Part shown: positions 55,986 to 63,874 of the stretch, in pieces
How the letters are laid out: the number at the start of each line of letters is the position of its first letter
Numbering within the stretch: the stretch's first letter is position 1
Source: Prevotella sp.
GTDB lineage: Bacteria; Bacteroidota; Bacteroidia; Bacteroidales; Bacteroidaceae
NCBI GenBank assembly: GCA_017474845.1
Contig: JAFVGS010000054.1
Location: 20,771-84,770 of the forward strand
DNA: 64,000 nt
Direction: 5' to 3'
Notes under the pieces: generated by a model
Database searches by the model: none
What the model was told of the DNA's origin: nothing
What the model saw: only the letters and a program-made list of their open reading frames with translations
Made by a program: the position numbers and the translations under genes

Positions 55986-56393
55986 TCAATAATAACCTAC
56001 TCTGATATAGTGGCGGGGTGGGGTAAAGGGGTTCCATGAGATGTGGAGCCAGCCATTGCCCGTGAGCAGTTGGTCGGTATATTCCCATGACTTGAAGAAT
56101 TCAATCAATCGCTGGAACTCATCAGGATCTTTCGGACGGATGTCAGCGGCCTGGCCGAGAAGGTGCTGGGAGTTCTTGACGCCTCCCACCTTGCGATTCA
56201 CCTCGGCATTCCGATAGCCGGAGTTGATGATGATGGGCCCGACGATCATCCTCGCCGGTTCCAGCAGCTGATGACAGCCGTAGGTCAGATTGACGACATC
56301 CTGCATCGACGGGATGTTCTCTGGATATTTCTCCAGGTTGAGAAACTCGCTCAGTTTAAAGTGAGGCGATAAGCGCACATCGCTATAATTCAT
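55986..56393 (-). CDS. M15-family D,D-peptidase-like protein (phage endolysin type)
   Basis: About 135 residues of the Peptidase_M15_3 kind. It has FKLSEFLNLEKYPENIPS, the zinc-site segments NSGYRNAEVNRKVGG and SQHLLGQAADIRP (His...Asp), and the final GWLHISWN with the third ligand His. It cuts peptide cross-links in the cell wall. The start is placed at ATG 56393; ATG 56399 and 56414 are possible because this junction is made of CACGAAT/ATGAAT words. It is the last gene of a mini-operon with a two-span membrane protein and a smalltalk protein. Confidence 0.82.
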   Translation of the reverse strand: MNYSDVRLSPHFKLSEFLNLEKYPENIPSMQDVVNLTYGCHQLLEPARMIVGPIIINSGYRNAEVNRKVGGVKNSQHLLGQAADIRPKDPDEFQRLIEFFKSWEYTDQLLTGNGWLHISWNPFTPPRHYIRVGYY

Positions 56394-56442
56394 GTTCATT
56401 CGTGTTTCATTCATGGCAATTCGTGTTAAGAATATTTTCGTG

Positions 56443-56661
56443 TTAAGACTGCTTTTCGTGATAATGCTTATTAATGATTCTGATGTACTGATCGAGTCCG
56501 AAGATTGATCCTGCGAGCAAGAACGACTGCGCCACATAATACAGCAGCCCGCCCGCTACATCGTCGATCTCGATCACCTGATACGCCACGAGCGCGATAC
56601 TGCTCACGATGAGCAATACCGCACAGGCGTACTGAGAGATTTTGAAGCCTTTGTGTTCCAT
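56443..56661 (-). CDS. Small two-span membrane protein (holin-like position)
   Basis: A 72-residue protein with two hydrophobic stretches (YACAVLLIVSSIALVAYQVI and LLYYVAQSFLLAGSIFGL) separated by a short acidic turn, and charged ends. The family is not recognised by name. Its place beside an M15 peptidase suggests a holin-like helper, but this is only position-based. It lies 44 bases after the smalltalk gene. Confidence 0.6.
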   Translation of the reverse strand: MEHKGFKISQYACAVLLIVSSIALVAYQVIEIDDVAGGLLYYVAQSFLLAGSIFGLDQYIRIINKHYHEKQS

Positions 56662-56925: not shown

Positions 56926-57066
56926 AGAAAAAAGAGCTCCGCTTTAATGGCCTTGCTTGCCGGACCAACCGGGGCTATCCATCTGAAGCGGAGCTTAAAA
57001 GTGCTTCTATTTACATAAGTCGCTTGCCGGACCAACCGGGGCTCTTATCCTAATAGGTTCCTTTCA
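56926..57066 (-). ncRNA. Candidate small RNA with two copies of one hairpin motif
   Basis: Read on the minus strand: a TAACTTTG box (57072-57079), then about 140 nt ending in a 13-bp hairpin (56984-56996 with 56934-56946) and a TCTTTTTTC run. A 22-base motif occurs twice, at 57022-57043 and 56955-56976. Each copy folds as CCGG-TTGGT-CCGG inside a lower stem, but the lower stems differ in sequence (ATAAG/CTTAT for the first; ATGG/CCAT plus the terminator stem for the second). The same loop on different stems points to a functional RNA. No open frame fits. No known RNA family is recognised. Confidence 0.6.
56934..56996 (-). terminator. Terminator hairpin of the twin-hairpin RNA
   Basis: A 13-bp stem with two G-U pairs, followed on the minus strand by TCTTTTTTC. 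The loop region holds the second copy of the repeated hairpin. Confidence 0.75.
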
Positions 57067-57071
57067 CGCTG

Positions 57072-57079
57072 CAAAGTTA
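57072..57079 (-). promoter_or_regulatory. -7 box of the twin-hairpin RNA
   Basis: TAACTTTG on the minus strand. A TTG-type upstream element lies about 19 bases further upstream. Confidence 0.6.
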
Positions 57080-57142
57080 CGACTTTTTTCTGAACAAACA
57101 ATCTGTTTCCATACTTTTTTTAATAAAAAAGCGATAAATCCT

Positions 57143-57172
57143 TTTGGTTATCGAAATCTTTTTGTACTTTTG
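57143..57172 (+). promoter_or_regulatory. Promoter of the structured leader/ncRNA and defence operon
   Basis: TTTG at 57143-57146, an 18-base spacer and TACTTTTG at 57165-57172. Transcription would begin near 57178, about 380 nt before the first helicase codon. Confidence 0.75.
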
Positions 57173-57177
57173 CAATC

Positions 57178-57555
57178 AAGTATTGGCTAATCGTCGTGAC
57201 ACGTTTGAATCCTCTTTACGCAAGAGGGCGACGTAAGCGGGAGTTGCGGCTGTCTAAACGGTCACAATTCAGCGAGCCTCAGAGGAGGTGCCGATGCGAT
57301 TTTTGTTGGAATAATCATAGCGTTAGTGCTATTCGGTGATGTCCCTGAACCTAGCAAATTCAATAGACACACTTGATTCGAATAAGTGCCAACGTCTACG
57401 CGATAGCGTGGACTGGACTTATCATCAAGATGTGGGTTTTGCTAGGACCTTGGGACATCGATAGGGGCGGTTCGCGCTTTTATTGTGTCCTGAGGTTCTA
57501 TGCCGAGAACCCATTATCATCCGAGATAGTCCTTTCGCTCCTAAGACTATAGCGT
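57178..57555 (+). ncRNA. Long structured RNA (leader or ncRNA) before the helicase-methylase operon
   Basis: About 380 nt with no coding frame on the plus strand and many helices. CGTCG 57192-57196 pairs with 57229-57233, enclosing CCTCTT/AAGAGG (57211-57227). ATAGC/GCTAT spans 57317-57332. A long-range two-part stem joins 57338-57345 to 57452-57459 (8 bp) and 57350-57358 to 57438-57446 (9 bp). It encloses CACTT/AAGTG (57370-57388) and an 8-bp GTCTACGC-GATA-GCGTGGAC hairpin (57394-57413). After it come GGTTCT/AGAACC (57494-57511) and ATAGTC/GACTAT (57526-57550), ending 9 bases before the ATG. It does not fit tmRNA, RNase P RNA or SRP RNA. Confidence 0.6.
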
Positions 57556-57559
57556 AGAT

Positions 57560-60500
57560 ATGGCAAACATACCTATTTCTTCCCATTTCTTTACTAACAG
57601 GGATGGGAACACGTTGATGAAGGAGTTTGAGGGTATCCTTGCTAACAACCCTCAAGTGAAGAACCTTGATGCTGTCGTGGGCTTTCTCCGGGCATCGGGC
57701 TATTTTTCCTTGCGGCCTTTCCTCGATGGTATCAATAAGGTTCGCATTCTGATTGGCATCGATGTTGATAAATACATTGCCAAAGCCAACCAGAAAGGCG
57801 AATTGTTCTTTGGTGCAGAGGAAGAAGTAAAAGAAGAATGCCTCAGGCTGTTAAAAGAAGACATAGAACAGTCACACTACACCAAAAAGGTGGAGGACGG
57901 TATGCTCCAGATGGTTCAAGATCTGGTTGATGGAAAACTGGAGTTGCGTGCCCATCCTTCGAAAAAGATTCATGCCAAGCTCTATATTCTCTATCCGGAT
58001 AATTACAACCGGCATTGCTTTGGTGCTGCCATTACTGGTAGTAGCAATCTGAGTGGCAACGGATTGGGTATCAGCGAAGATAAGCAATACGAGTTCAATG
58101 TCAAACTGGAGCGTTACGATGATGTGCAGTTTGCCAAAGACGAGTTTGAATTGCTTTGGGAAGAAGCCAAAAATGTGCCGATCAATGCAGAAGACTATCA
58201 AACCACTCTTGATAAGACCTACCTGAAAGGTGATGTCACACCTTACGAGCTCTACATTAAGATGCTCATGGAATATTTCAGCGACCGCGTGTTGGCTATC
58301 GACCAAGAAGATCCTTTCGACATGCCTACGGGTTATACCAAATACGACTATCAAGCAGATGCTGTCGTAGAGGGTTATCAGAAATTGCTTCGCTATGACG
58401 GTTTCTTCCTGGCAGATGTGGTCGGTCTTGGTAAGACTGTAATTGCCACGATGATAGCTAAGAAATTCCTGATTGAGAATGGCCCTGAACATACAAAGAT
58501 ATTGGTGGTCTATCCGCCAGCAGTCGAGCAGAACTGGAAGACCACCTTCAAGGATTTCGGCCTCGAAAAGTATGCTTGTTTCGTAAGTAATGGCAGTCTC
58601 TCCAAAGTGCTTGATGAAAGTAACTATGATGTATGGAATGCTGACGAATACGATTTGGTATTGGTAGATGAGGCCCACAAATTCCGTAATCATACAACTG
58701 GAACTTTCAACCAGTTGCAGGAAATCTGTAAGATGCCTCGTTTGGAAACGGGCTATATTCCTGGCTATAAGAAAAAGGTGATGCTGATTTCTGCAACGCC
58801 CATGAACAATACGCCTGCAGATATTTATAATCAGATACTGATGTTCCAAGACCCTCGCCATTGCACCATTGACGGAGTCCCCAATCTGACAGCCTTCTTC
58901 TCTCCTTTAGTCGTGGAATTCCGTAAGTTCCGCAAGCAGGAGAATTTCGATTTGAAACAATTCAAGAAATTGGCAGAGAGGGTTCGAGACAGAGTGATCA
59001 AGCCGCTTACTGTCCGCAGAACGAGAACAGATATCGAGGGTATCGCGCGATATAATAAAGATGTGAACGGATTCCCGAAGGTAGATAAGCCCGTCAAAAA
59101 GGACTATGAGCTGAACGACCATTTGGCAAATCTGTTTGAAGAGGCTATGAACATACTCGACAAGAGACTGACCTATGCCCGCTATCAAGCTATTGCCTAC
59201 CTGAAGCCTGATGCTGCTCCAGGCTTGTATGATAATGCAGAAGTTATCAGCCGCAGTTTGGCAGGCATTCGTAAAAACGGTCTGGTAAAGCGTCTGGAAA
59301 GTAGTTTCTATGCTTTCAGTAAATCGCTCAAAGCATTCCGTCAGGCTAATGAGAATATGATAGACATGTGGGAGAATGATAAGATATACATTGCCCCAGA
59401 TTTGGATATTAATGCTCTTATAGAGGCAGGCTACAGCGAGGAAGAGATTGAACAGAAGATGAACGAGAAGGCGGAGGTGAATCCCAAGAACGCCTCCTTC
59501 AAACGAGAACACTTCAATGAAGAATACATAGACAAGTTGAGAGCTGATCAAGAGCTTCTGGATAATATGTGGTTGGAGTGGGAATACATCAGCGATGATG
59601 ACGATTCGAAGTTTGCCAAGTTTGCAGACCTCCTAAAGCATGAGTTGTTTAAGAAAGACAAGAATCCGGAAGGGAAACTCGTCGTGTTCTCAGAATCTGT
59701 CGATACGGTAGAGTATCTGGAACGCCGCATCAATCGTAAGGATGTGCTTGTGATTTCTTCTAAGAACAGGAGTCAGCTTTTCAAGACCATTCGTGAGAAC
59801 TTTGATGCTAACTGGAAAGAGAGGAAAGATGACTATAACATCATCCTGACAACAGATGTGTTGGCAGAGGGTGTCAACCTGCATCGCTCGAACATCATTA
59901 TCAACTACGACACGCCTTGGAATGCTACCCGTCTGATGCAGCGAATAGGGCGTGTGAATCGTATTGGTTCGAAGGCTGGCATTATCTACAACTACGTGTT
60001 CTACCCATCTCGTCAGGGTAATAAGGAAATCAAACTCAATCAGATAGCGCTGAGTAAGATTCAGACCTTCCATACCACGTTTGGCGAGGATAATCAAATC
60101 TATTCGACGGAAGAGATTATTGACCGCGACCTTGACAAACTTTTCAAGGAAAGCATCAAGCGCGAACAGGAAGACCGCAACCTGGAACTGCCGTTCTATG
60201 AAGAATTGCGAGCACTCTATCAGCAGAACCGTAAGGAATATAAACGCATAGAAAGACTGTCATTACGTAGTCGAACTGGCCGTGAGCCTCGTGAATTGGA
60301 AGGAGTAACTTTGTCAGGCGACTCATTGGTTTTACTCAAAACCAACTTCCGCAAACTGTTCTATCTGGTGAACGACCAGCAGACACGTGAGTTGTCTGTG
60401 CTTGATGCGCTCAATTATTTCAAGGCCAAGCCAGAAGAAAAGGCTGTACCTCGTATTCCTCAGCATCATGAGCATGTAGAGAAAGCCCTGAAGGAATTCA

Positions 60501-60880
60501 ATAAAACCAAGGAACAGGAACTGCACGATGAAGAATCGAACCAGAACCAGCGCAGCAATCTTGGCGCTCAGGTCACAACGGCTGTCAGCCTGTTAAACAG
60601 CATGTTGCCCCATATTGAGGATGGTGACACCCGTCTGAAGATTGTTCAGTTGAAGGAGCTAACCGAGCGAGGCACCATTACTTATATCGCCAAACGTCTG
60701 CAACGCATTCAGAAGGACTTGCAGCGCCAGGGTGGCAGCAAAGCAAAGTTGACCTTTGAGGATGCACTAAAACAAGTGCTTGAAATGGCCAACAAATACA
60801 ATACTTATTACCGCGAAACCCAGCATGCAGAAGAGGAATCTGCAGCTGTCATCATATTATCGGAATCTTTTAAAAACTAA
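57560..60880 (+). CDS. PLD-nuclease / SF2 (SNF2-like) helicase fusion, defence type
   Basis: 1106 residues. The N-terminal ~200 residues are a phospholipase D-like nuclease domain with the half-site KIHAKLYIL (His138, Lys140) and GSSN at ~160. One HxK per chain means dimers would form the active site. An SF2 helicase follows: Walker A VGLGKTVIA (~289), DEAH at 370-373, SATPMNN, and the C-lobe motif QRIGRVNRIGSK (~795). A long charged C-terminal tail ends the protein. It starts at the first ATG after the structured RNA; a methylase gene follows by 6 bases. Such pairs are found in phage-defence and restriction loci; I cannot assign a named system. Its base use is more AT-rich than the core genes. 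Confidence 0.87.
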   Translation: MANIPISSHFFTNRDGNTLMKEFEGILANNPQVKNLDAVVGFLRASGYFSLRPFLDGINKVRILIGIDVDKYIAKANQKGELFFGAEEEVKEECLRLLKEDIEQSHYTKKVEDGMLQMVQDLVDGKLELRAHPSKKIHAKLYILYPDNYNRHCFGAAITGSSNLSGNGLGISEDKQYEFNVKLERYDDVQFAKDEFELLWEEAKNVPINAEDYQTTLDKTYLKGDVTPYELYIKMLMEYFSDRVLAIDQEDPFDMPTGYTKYDYQADAVVEGYQKLLRYDGFFLADVVGLGKTVIATMIAKKFLIENGPEHTKILVVYPPAVEQNWKTTFKDFGLEKYACFVSNGSLSKVLDESNYDVWNADEYDLVLVDEAHKFRNHTTGTFNQLQEICKMPRLETGYIPGYKKKVMLISATPMNNTPADIYNQILMFQDPRHCTIDGVPNLTAFFSPLVVEFRKFRKQENFDLKQFKKLAERVRDRVIKPLTVRRTRTDIEGIARYNKDVNGFPKVDKPVKKDYELNDHLANLFEEAMNILDKRLTYARYQAIAYLKPDAAPGLYDNAEVISRSLAGIRKNGLVKRLESSFYAFSKSLKAFRQANENMIDMWENDKIYIAPDLDINALIEAGYSEEEIEQKMNEKAEVNPKNASFKREHFNEEYIDKLRADQELLDNMWLEWEYISDDDDSKFAKFADLLKHELFKKDKNPEGKLVVFSESVDTVEYLERRINRKDVLVISSKNRSQLFKTIRENFDANWKERKDDYNIILTTDVLAEGVNLHRSNIIINYDTPWNATRLMQRIGRVNRIGSKAGIIYNYVFYPSRQGNKEIKLNQIALSKIQTFHTTFGEDNQIYSTEEIIDRDLDKLFKESIKREQEDRNLELPFYEELRALYQQNRKEYKRIERLSLRSRTGREPRELEGVTLSGDSLVLLKTNFRKLFYLVNDQQTRELSVLDALNYFKAKPEEKAVPRIPQHHEHVEKALKEFNKTKEQELHDEESNQNQRSNLGAQVTTAVSLLNSMLPHIEDGDTRLKIVQLKELTERGTITYIAKRLQRIQKDLQRQGGSKAKLTFEDALKQVLEMANKYNTYYRETQHAEEESAAVIILSESFKN

Positions 60881-60886
60881 TGCCTT

Positions 60887-63874
60887 ATGAACTATAAAGA
60901 AGTCATTGAATCGAGATATAATCGCCAGAACTGGCTGTTGCTAATCCGCGACATCTTCAGGAACAAGGTCAAGTTCTGGAGCACGCCATCTGTTGTTCCT
61001 ACCAGTAGTCAGTTTGCCAAGCAGGCATTGTGGCTGGGTACTATCACATTGAGCGACAACCAGACTATCAGCATCTACGAAGTTGAACTCTCTGATAGCG
61101 TTAATATAGAACGTAACCGCAGAGGCATCCGCGATATGCTATTGACCGATTGGCGAAGCAATGGCAATGCTGGAGCCTTTATGTTCTGCTATCGCAAGAA
61201 CGAGAGTGTGCTCCGTTTCTCATACGTTAGCGAGGCCTGGACGTTTGCAGCGGATGGTAGTTATCAGAAAGAATCAACTGATGCCAAACGCTTTACCTAT
61301 CTGCTGGGTGAAGGTCATCGCAGTCGCACCGCCATTCAGCAATTTGAGAAACTGCGCGACAGTAGTCTTACGTTGAAGGATCTGACTAAAGCGTTCTCTG
61401 TGGATGCTGTCAGCGATATGTTCTTCGATGGCTACAAGAAACAATACGAGGACATCATCCAGTACATCACAGGCAAGCGGATGGTGAAGGTGGCCAACAA
61501 GTGGGAAGAGCAAATCAAGAACGACCCCTGCGAGGAAATCATGCAGGAGTTTGCCCACTTCCCCAACCCTGAGAAAGCCGTCCGTGACTATGTGAAGAAA
61601 CTGATGGGCCGTTTGGTTTTCCTCCAGTTCCTACAGAAGAAAGGTTGGCTCGGTGTAAAGAGTGGAGCAGAGTGGGGTAGTGGAGACTCGGAATTCATTC
61701 AGAACCTCTTTGCCCAAACAGCAGATAAAGACCACTTCATAGACAATGTATTGGAAGCACTCTTCAACGATCTCAATAGTGAGAATGAGAAGAAACTACC
61801 TCAATATCGTACACCTTATTTAAATGGTGGATTGTTCGAGCGTGATGCCACAGACGAAACGGAGTTTCCTCTGCCAGCCAGATATATGCAGAGCCTGCTT
61901 GACTTCTTCGCTTCTTATAACTTCACCATCGACGAGAACGATCCTGACGATGCAGAGGTAGGTGTTGACCCTGAGATGTTAGGGCGTATCTTCGAGAACC
62001 TGCTTGAAGACAATAAGGACAAAGGTGCATTCTATACGCCAAAGGAAATCGTTAGCTATATGTGTCGCGAAAGCCTTATTGCCTATCTCCAGACAGACAT
62101 TGAGGACGAAGCCACCAAGGAAGCCATTCGCCAGTTTGTAACCACTCATGACGTCAACGCTCTTGGACAAAACCAAAAGTTCCGTCAGCAAGTAGATGAG
62201 GCTCTGAAGAACGTCAAGATATGCGACCCTGCTATTGGTTCTGGCGCATTCCCAATGGGCTTGCTGAAAGAACTCTTCCAATGCCGCACAGCCCTTGAAG
62301 GCATAGACCAAAGCAAAGCTGCTGAAATCAAAAAGCACATCATCCAGCAGAATATCTATGGTGTCGATATTGAGCGTGGTGCTGTTGATATTGCCCGCCT
62401 CCGTTTCTGGCTATCTCTGATTGTTGACGAAGAAACACCACAGGCTCTGCCAAACCTTGACTTTAAGATTATGCAAGGTAACTCGCTGTTGGAGCAGTAC
62501 AAGGGTGTTGACCTCTCAACGATAACGGAATTAAAGACGGAAAAACATGGAACATACCAAACAACGATGTTTGATGACATGATAGATGTATTACGTCTCG
62601 ACTTGCGAAAGAAACTTGACGAATACTACAGCTGCACAGACCACAAGCGCAAAGCATTCCTGAAGCAAGACATTATAAATAATGTAAAGCAGCAGCTCAA
62701 AGAACAAAGCATCAATGTTGACTTTGGTGACCTCGACCTTTCAGGTAACAACCAATTCATGCTTTGGCATACTTGGTTCTATGATGTATTCTCCCAAGGA
62801 GGCTTTGATATTGTGATTGCAAATCCGCCGTATGTAGATGCAAAAAAACTCAAAGGTATAGCACCAAATCTAAAACAGTTCAAGGTGTTTAATGGAACGG
62901 CTGATTTATATACTTATTTCTATGAACTGGCCATATATATGCTAACTCCCAATGGTATTATGACGTTTATAACGTCAAATAAATGGATTAGAAGTGAATA
63001 TGGTCGAAATTTGAGGAAGATGTTCCTTGAGAATAAAATACTTCAACTTATTGATTTTGGTCGAAATCGTCTATTTGGAGCAACTGTAGATTCCAATATT
63101 TTTAGTGTGAAGAAAAAGTCTAAGGGGGGACAACCTTCATTGTATTATTTTGATGAGAACACCGAAGGAGGCTCACTCTTGGAAATGATAAAACATGGTA
63201 AAGTAAAGAATGTAGACTTATCAGAAGATGCATGGTTGTTAAAAGCCGGTGAAAACGATAAGATGAAATCAAAGATTGAGTCGCACGGAATTCCTTTGAA
63301 GGATCTTGGAGTAACTATATTTAGGGGAATTCTTACAGGCTATAATAAAGCTTTTCACATAGATAAAGCAACGAAAGAAGAACTTATAAGGTTAGACTCA
63401 AGAAGTGCAGAAATTATAAAACCTCTTATTTGTGGCGGGGATACAAACAAATTTTATTGTAGCCCTACAGAATCATATTTGATTGCTACATTTCCATCTC
63501 GCAACTACAAAATTGATGACTTCCCCGCTATTAAGAAACATCTTTTGTCCTATGGTGTTGAACGGTTAGAGCAGACGGGGAAGAAGCACGTTGTCAATGG
63601 TGAAATTGTTAAATCAAGAAAGAAAACTCATAACAAGTGGTATGAAACACAAGATAGTATAAGTTATTGGAATGATTTTACAAAGGCCAAGATTATATGG
63701 CAGGCCATTTCAAAAAGAATTGCATTTGCATATGATTCAGAAGGCGTTTACAATTGTGATGTTACAACATTCTTCATGACAGGAAACAATCTAAAGTACA
63801 TACTTGCAATTCTCAACTCTAAACTATTTGAATATGCTTTGTTAAAGATTTATTTGGAAGTAAGCCATCAGTGA
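60887..63874 (+). CDS. Eco57I-class N6 adenine DNA methylase/R-M protein, 3' end disrupted
   Basis: About 991 native residues are visible. The N-terminal region (to ~350) is helical and unassigned. Then come GAFYTPKEIVSYM, the SAM motif I DPAIGSGAFPMG (~446) and the catalytic NPPY in IANPPYVDAKK (~646), the gamma-class N6-adenine arrangement of Eco57I-type enzymes. The C-terminal part, more AT-rich, is the target-recognition region (NKWIRSEYGRNLRKMF, LGVTIFRGILTGYNKAF). The frame ends in KIYLEVSHQ; the last four residues come from an IS66-like terminus that begins at 63860. The normal end of the recognition domain is lost, so activity is doubtful. Confidence 0.85.
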   Translation: MNYKEVIESRYNRQNWLLLIRDIFRNKVKFWSTPSVVPTSSQFAKQALWLGTITLSDNQTISIYEVELSDSVNIERNRRGIRDMLLTDWRSNGNAGAFMFCYRKNESVLRFSYVSEAWTFAADGSYQKESTDAKRFTYLLGEGHRSRTAIQQFEKLRDSSLTLKDLTKAFSVDAVSDMFFDGYKKQYEDIIQYITGKRMVKVANKWEEQIKNDPCEEIMQEFAHFPNPEKAVRDYVKKLMGRLVFLQFLQKKGWLGVKSGAEWGSGDSEFIQNLFAQTADKDHFIDNVLEALFNDLNSENEKKLPQYRTPYLNGGLFERDATDETEFPLPARYMQSLLDFFASYNFTIDENDPDDAEVGVDPEMLGRIFENLLEDNKDKGAFYTPKEIVSYMCRESLIAYLQTDIEDEATKEAIRQFVTTHDVNALGQNQKFRQQVDEALKNVKICDPAIGSGAFPMGLLKELFQCRTALEGIDQSKAAEIKKHIIQQNIYGVDIERGAVDIARLRFWLSLIVDEETPQALPNLDFKIMQGNSLLEQYKGVDLSTITELKTEKHGTYQTTMFDDMIDVLRLDLRKKLDEYYSCTDHKRKAFLKQDIINNVKQQLKEQSINVDFGDLDLSGNNQFMLWHTWFYDVFSQGGFDIVIANPPYVDAKKLKGIAPNLKQFKVFNGTADLYTYFYELAIYMLTPNGIMTFITSNKWIRSEYGRNLRKMFLENKILQLIDFGRNRLFGATVDSNIFSVKKKSKGGQPSLYYFDENTEGGSLLEMIKHGKVKNVDLSEDAWLLKAGENDKMKSKIESHGIPLKDLGVTIFRGILTGYNKAFHIDKATKEELIRLDSRSAEIIKPLICGGDTNKFYCSPTESYLIATFPSRNYKIDDFPAIKKHLLSYGVERLEQTGKKHVVNGEIVKSRKKTHNKWYETQDSISYWNDFTKAKIIWQAISKRIAFAYDSEGVYNCDVTTFFMTGNNLKYILAILNSKLFEYALLKIYLEVSHQ

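Follow-up and report, generated by a model that had tools for sequence, protein, structure and literature searches.

What is the role of an RNA of almost 400 nt, rich in helices, that lies directly before an operon for a helicase and a DNA methylase? The question is raised by a 64,000-nt stretch of Prevotella sp. (hereafter the window; GenBank assembly GCA_017474845.1, contig JAFVGS010000054.1, positions 20,771 to 84,770 of the forward strand), in which a leader of ~380 nt at 57178-57556 has a promoter box on its 5' side and the helicase ATG, at 57560, on its 3' side. An earlier note on this DNA had described this order of promoter, leader and start codon, which we confirm in the sequence, and had offered three roles for the RNA: a cis-regulator, an RNA cofactor of the helicase-nuclease, or a separate RNA gene. 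The leader belongs to a real and widely conserved class of structured RNA that is absent from Rfam 15, and the role that we hold on balance to be probable, judging from modelled folds and their relatives, is riboswitch-like translational control of accessory genes.

A covarying RNA core before the helicase gene

The segment 57178-57562 (385 nt) reaches a minimum free energy (MFE) of -145.5 kcal/mol, against -112.9 +/- 5.5 in 100 shuffles, none of which is as low (z -5.9). The stems that the earlier note had named are present (Table 1), among them the 8-bp hairpin with a GATA loop (helix E) and both parts of a long-range stem, the first of 8 bp as described (helix A) and the second of 7 bp rather than the 9 announced (helix B). 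Several observations indicate compensatory change in these helices, and so answer the objection, raised in the same note, that they might not covary. First, in the alignment of the 29 members from which we built covariance model R1, 87.2% of cells are paired and 36 of 59 pairs show two-sided changes. On none of five measures does any of 500 shuffles come up to the alignment, and pairing falls to 33-46% when the partners are shifted by 1-3 columns. Second, two-sided changes occur in 46 of 53 pairs among 90 members aligned by R1, and in 50 of 53 among 60 members from the searches of the window's order and phylum, although both alignments were fitted to models and are hence biased towards them. 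Third, the stem spanning 57338-57459, singled out beforehand as the place where compensatory changes in homologues would be telling, has them at every pair of helix A, and helix B is fully paired (100% of cells) in two model-aligned sets, of 89 and 60 sequences. Fourth, the pseudoknot pairs more strongly with its own partner strands than with swapped ones, and hairpin H1 behaves likewise towards the stretch ahead of the start codon (own -7.1 for the 5' half and -11.0 for the whole, swapped -6.2 and -9.1 kcal/mol; covariation p 0.0005 by permutation, relatedness being handled by an 80% identity cut alone). The distance from promoter box to H1 differs among members. A conserved, structured 5'-leader core with covariation, which serves as a criterion for riboswitches, thus appears to be present here.

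No Rfam family covers this core. A gathering scan of the window against Rfam 15 gave no family over the leader, which disposes of the suggestion that a housekeeping RNA might lie there by chance, and a search of an 801-base slice to E 5 returned three weak matches, all outside the leader. These results bear on the idea of a ribozyme or self-processing leader, whose pseudoknotted core would cut or splice itself near the start codon. The large pseudoknotted fold, its near-invariant unpaired bases (A57348, A57349, C57448 and C57449 among them) and an arrangement resembling P3/P7/P8 in group I introns would suit it, but there is no Rfam ribozyme or intron match, no P6-like arm and no identified scissile site, and we regard it as very improbable.

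Table 1. Features of the leader and its operon (positions in the window)
Feature	Position	Strand	Remarks
Promoter	57144..57172	+	Bacteroidota type, TTG 18 nt upstream of TACTTTTG at 57165-57172; read from sequence
Variable 5' domain	57180..57297	+	closed by P1 57180-57187/57290-57297; MFE fold
Hairpin H1	57317..57332	+	covaries with segment adjoining start codon
Closing helix P2	57334-57336/57521-57523	+	89.1% of cells paired, two-sided changes in 3/3 pairs (90-member alignment)
Long-range helix A	57338-57345/57452-57459	+	8 bp; two-sided changes in 8/8 pairs
Long-range helix B	57350-57356/57440-57446	+	7 bp; 98.0% of cells paired (R1 alignment)
Arm helix C	57372-57377/57424-57429	+	covariation alignments
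Arm helix D	57382-57387/57417-57422	+	covariation alignments
Arm helix E	57394-57401/57406-57413	+	8 bp, GATA loop; covariation alignments
Pseudoknot	57433-57438/57508-57513	+	two-sided changes in 4/6 pairs, 92.3% of cells paired
Hairpin F	57460-57469/57475-57484	+	covariation alignments; inner part paired in 52-69% of cells
Alternative helix	57447-57457/57486-57496	+	excludes helix A; MFE fold; weak in distant members
SNF2-type helicase	57560..60880	+	PADLOC HKD+Snf2 (C3a139)
Eco57I-type DNA methylase	60887..63874	+	PADLOC type IIG

Distribution, downstream genes and placement

Is the RNA a partner of the helicase? By blastn, the 383-nt leader is found in 10 of 301 genomes of the window's family, before helicase homologues and also, as judged by eye, before HsdM-like genes (our loci L002 and L010) and a DNA-modification-like gene (L007); three copies lack a close gene (L004, L006, L009). 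Among the best 80 of the 104 helicase loci from a genome scan, model R2 places the RNA before 50 at E <=0.05 (weakly in L030 and L044), with never more than about 105 nt between the end of the match and the helicase start. The association follows relatedness: at helicase identities of at least 78% (best segment) 49 of 52 loci have the RNA, against 1 of 28 at 74% or less. Among the 30 loci without a match, five have <200 nt of upstream sequence (four of the 27 at low identity), and two, L042 and L043, resemble the divergent L030 type by eye. The expectation that homologous operons would carry the RNA therefore holds for close homologues and fails for distant ones. A helicase-specific RNA cofactor was rejected, since many unrelated genes share the RNA and those 30 helicase loci show none. 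The same two facts (the downstream genes have no common protein) count against a trans-acting RNA, or an RNA partner of defence proteins at large, which we think most improbable; in its favour stand the three copies without a close gene, and these few may be separate RNA genes. Divergent RNA sub-types precede close helicase homologues at L024, L026-L028, L034, L030 and L042-L044, and that of L030 is barely reached by our models.

The range of the RNA is much wider than that of the helicase operon. R1 matches 261 of 399 family genomes at E <=1e-3. At E <=1e-6, R2 matches 100 of the 295 order genomes and, in a phylum sample of 296, 28 genomes, two of which lie outside the taxonomic class; the window genome is counted in both. 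The order and phylum searches scored 5 or 8 candidates per genome, so that per-genome counts are lower bounds; their E-values are approximate. When 150 candidates were scored in each of nine genomes reached via named loci, eight matched at E <=1e-3, and at the same depth and threshold no match was found in Parasutterella muris, a proteobacterium. Copies are often numerous: 11 in Bacteroides xylanisolvens XB1A and 16 in Bacteroides sp. GM023 (many weak), 3 to 12 in each of six genomes holding close relatives of the window locus or RNA, and, in the incomplete window genome, the window copy and a weak one (E 4.7e-7). Phages and plasmids gave no blastn match to the window RNA; two DNA patterns hit 0 and 63 stretches in viral contigs, and all 63 failed to match the covariance model. 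Several copies (L239, L240 and L249; genomes G476, G414, G570 and G544) lie just 170-500 nt from contig ends, as though they belonged to assembly-breaking repeats.

To describe the genes behind the RNA we hand-picked 150 loci: 60 came from the family matches, 43 from those of the order or from the window's own genome, 17 from those of the phylum, and 30, the full set fetched there, from the named genomes. As first open reading frame (ORF) we took one of at least 80 aa with its ATG within 400 nt, which 137 loci possess. By blastp, 62 of the 137 first ORFs (raw counts) resemble restriction or defence representatives. The family sample accounts for 47 (of 59) and the order sample for 12 (of 41), the named genomes add 3 (of 22), and the phylum sample has none among its 15; the representatives were of our own choosing, and the family sample, drawn mostly from top scores, is biased to the window type. 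The defence types recognised with Pfam or PADLOC comprise SNF2/PLD helicases, HsdM (type I), EcoRI-type methylases, MmeI (MmeI/IIG), Eco57I, type III methylases, a DUF4011 helicase (PADLOC PDC-S37), DrmD-like proteins, ZorA (Zorya) and a ShosA-like DprA. The RNA also stands before surface proteins; BspA-type leucine-rich repeat (LRR) proteins, acyltransferases, PAP2, WG repeats and response regulators are found there too, and at L305, in Hallella multisaccharivorax, an ORF that by eye resembles a NusG/UpxY-type protein follows a weak match (E 7.5e-7). From these sequences, the link with defence appears to characterise the window's family and, in part, its order, but not the RNA class as a whole. 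For the 60 family loci, the statement that such leaders are rare among defence operons does not stand.

The ATG lies 0-49 nt past the end of the model in 108 of the 137 loci (51 of 59 in the family, 32 of 41 in the order, 7 of 15 in the phylum sample and 18 of 22 in the named genomes). On the other side, the 220 nt 5' of the RNA hold the promoter motif TAnnTTTG in 48 of 51 family-level members, where shuffles predict 6.4 and the opposite strand has 8; for distant members, with 200 nt considered, the figure is 40 of 56, against 7.2 expected and 18 on the opposite strand. No intrinsic terminator was detected in 57000-57700, which includes the window leader. These three features argue for the cis-regulator among the roles first offered. 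An alternative role is processive antitermination of the EAR or put kind, in which the nascent RNA would modify RNA polymerase and let it read through long operons acquired horizontally. A promoter box just 5' of the RNA and accessory, often long, downstream genes would fit such a role, but it does not require a constant distance to the start codon, and short genes carry the RNA too; we give it a slim chance. An upstream short ORF acting as attenuator was considered and dropped, the AUG in GGUAUGAUU not being conserved in every member (by eye).

Alternative pairing and probable exchange of the core

The single-sequence MFE fold of the window leader takes the alternative helix instead of the long-range stem. 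Both pairings of the shared B3'/A3' strand are conserved in family-level members: own partners give -21.9 kcal/mol with the 5' strand (swapped -7.7) and -18.5 with the 3' strand (swapped -12.2), and in 41 of 52 non-redundant members the 3' pairing has z below -2 when compared with shuffled 3' strands. When enforced as nested folds in the window, the two states differ by 5.5 kcal/mol (-91.3 vs -96.8). In 57 distant members the 5' pairing is equally strong (own -20.1, swapped -6.2). The 3' pairing there is weak, so that the core is phylum-wide and the switch partner is a lineage feature, confined to the window lineage and some others.

These elements suggest how the leader could act. We infer that it is transcribed as predicted, as the 5' end of the helicase-methylase mRNA, and works there in cis as an RNA switch. 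Its sensing part would be the conserved pseudoknotted core of helices A and B, arm C-D-E, hairpin F and P2, to which a ligand or protein partner would bind. In the window lineage, the B3'/A3' strand would leave the 5' strand in the cell and pair with the 3' strand near the start codon; the translation start, about 35 nt past the core, would be exposed in one fold and hidden in the other, with translation as the output. The signal is probably a general one (a metabolite, a second messenger or a common RNA-binding protein, and not the helicase itself), because many accessory genes share the element.

Several observations weigh against this reading: 1) the downstream genes have no evident common pathway, which is unusual for a metabolite riboswitch; 2) the phylum sample keeps the spacing to the ATG loosely, about half of its loci falling below 50 nt; 3) 13 of the 150 loci have no first ORF under the rule used; 4) the 3' pairing of distant members amounts to -8.2 vs -6.5 kcal/mol, with z below -2 in 11 of 57; and 5) a start-codon-adjacent hairpin had to be rejected as a general feature, only 14 of 48 tails having z below -1.5. 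The fourth would be accommodated by a static, translation-enhancing leader, a compact RNA that recruits or positions the ribosome at the start codon with no switching, in a phylum that depends little on Shine-Dalgarno sites. The short and fairly constant spacing, the conservation of the core across the phylum sample and the weak alternative pairing of distant members are in line with it; the conservation of mutually exclusive pairing in the window family is not, and we consider this explanation rather unlikely.

The core also seems to move between operons. The window and L011 are identical over 57080-57344 and 96-100% identical in 250-base steps over 57500-59749, yet their RNA arms (~57345-57520; about 4787-4961 in L011) are only about 81% identical, and against L011 and L012 the arms differ by about 19-20% inside flanks that are almost the same; the window/L011 differences are largely paired changes (by eye). 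Comparing 40 helicase loci, we found the RNA middle less conserved than the gene in 25 of the 26 pairs with gene identity of at least 90% (means 82.2 vs 93.6%), while the 28 nt after it are 98.9% identical. The 100 nt upstream are equally variable on average (81.7%), which speaks against a special rate for the core, yet they are 100% identical among the window, L011 and L012. Steady fast mutation of the core is likewise disfavoured: in L035/L033 core and gene identities are 99% and 95%, against 84% and 98.8% in window/L011. Conversely, in 12 hand-picked pairs with different genes, the RNAs are 86-97% identical in 11, where the sequence past the start codon is not alignable beyond chance, and 72% in the twelfth (L134/L179). 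On a quick tree of 90 cores, with many weakly supported forks, 12 gene groups labelled by us need 36 changes, between the minimum of 11 and the mean of 46.0 for shuffled labels, so that leader and gene are partly linked and often exchanged. From sequence comparison, ectopic gene conversion or cassette exchange between unrelated operons would best explain the pattern of the core, and diversifying selection may be another source of its divergence. No donor was found within G992 and G993, the genomes of L011 and L012, where the next best copies score 123 and 71 bits against 185 and 188 for the window type.

Restriction and other defence systems burden and endanger the cells that carry them, and to our knowledge little is known of their post-transcriptional control in Bacteroidota. 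A bolder proposal, which we offer tentatively and think more apt to fail than to hold, is that the phylum-wide class is a common post-transcriptional switch of a Bacteroidota "conflict" regulon, placing unrelated restriction, defence and surface loci of a genome under one signal, perhaps infection or envelope stress, with the core swapped between operons as a regulatory cassette. One RNA class before type I, II, III, MmeI, DISARM-like and Zorya systems would offer a single handle on defence control, a large riboswitch-like class missing from Rfam would have an orphan signal that can be searched for directly, and a regulatory RNA core would be seen to recombine independently of the gene that it controls.

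The locus and related RNA classes

The operon had been described as one of a PLD-helicase and a methylase. Helicase and methylase are both there; Pfam PLDc_2 is not among the matches of the window helicase at E 0.001, so the PLD assignment comes from the PADLOC model. A truncated relative scores below the PLDc_2 gathering score, and the window helicase falls far below the curated cut-offs for DrmD, DpdE and the NCBI phospholipase-D anti-phage protein. A sigma-70 scan of the leader region found no promoter, as would be expected with one of the Bacteroidota type. Upstream of the leader promoter lie an imperfect 47-nt direct repeat (56930-56976/56997-57043, 77%, with an exact CTTGCCGGACCAACCGGGGCT at its end) and a peptidase M15 gene (55986-56537, minus strand) with small ORFs beside it. 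A 20-nt inverted repeat (56857-56876/57159-57178, 90%) takes in the leader promoter box and a mirrored box on the opposite strand.

Literature screened by title and start of abstract, mainly non-subscription papers, held nothing on such a leader. In the main texts of PMC8040213 and PMC7366714 the word "restriction" does not occur, and PMC12373285 deals with RNA regulation of AbiF.

Among known RNAs, DUF805 and DUF805b (RF03081, RF02914) are the only ones met beside a copy: a search of 18 distant loci in Rfam to E 0.05 gave matches at L195 only, with DUF805b at 1605-1641, where it covers just the final 18 nt of the RNA match, and DUF805 at 1733-1797. Both are Cis-reg families, like the leader in kind, but they are short, of other sequence, without a match in the window, and lie at the RNA's 3' margin or past it; we rejected them as its identity and regard them as a different element. 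With the P3/P7/P8 topology of group I introns the leader shares a long-range helix and a pseudoknot, with a hairpin between the 3' strands, but it has a single arm, C-D-E, no P6-like arm and no Rfam match to group I introns to E 5 in the window slice; a P3-P7-P8 core with a P4-P6 domain and splice sites is not what we find. EAR and put, processive antitermination RNAs near the 5' end of operons, resemble it as structured RNAs in that position, and differ in that the leader lacks an Rfam match and keeps a short, fairly constant spacing to the start codon. Riboswitches differ from it in that the leader has no known ligand, no evident shared downstream pathway, several copies per genome and no match to an Rfam 15 class. 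They share with it the promoter-adjacent 5' position, a conserved pseudoknotted core, the close start codon, mutually exclusive helices (in one lineage here) and a variable 3' part: riboswitches keep the aptamer and vary the expression platform, and the leader, with its core kept and its 3' part variable, shows the same pattern.

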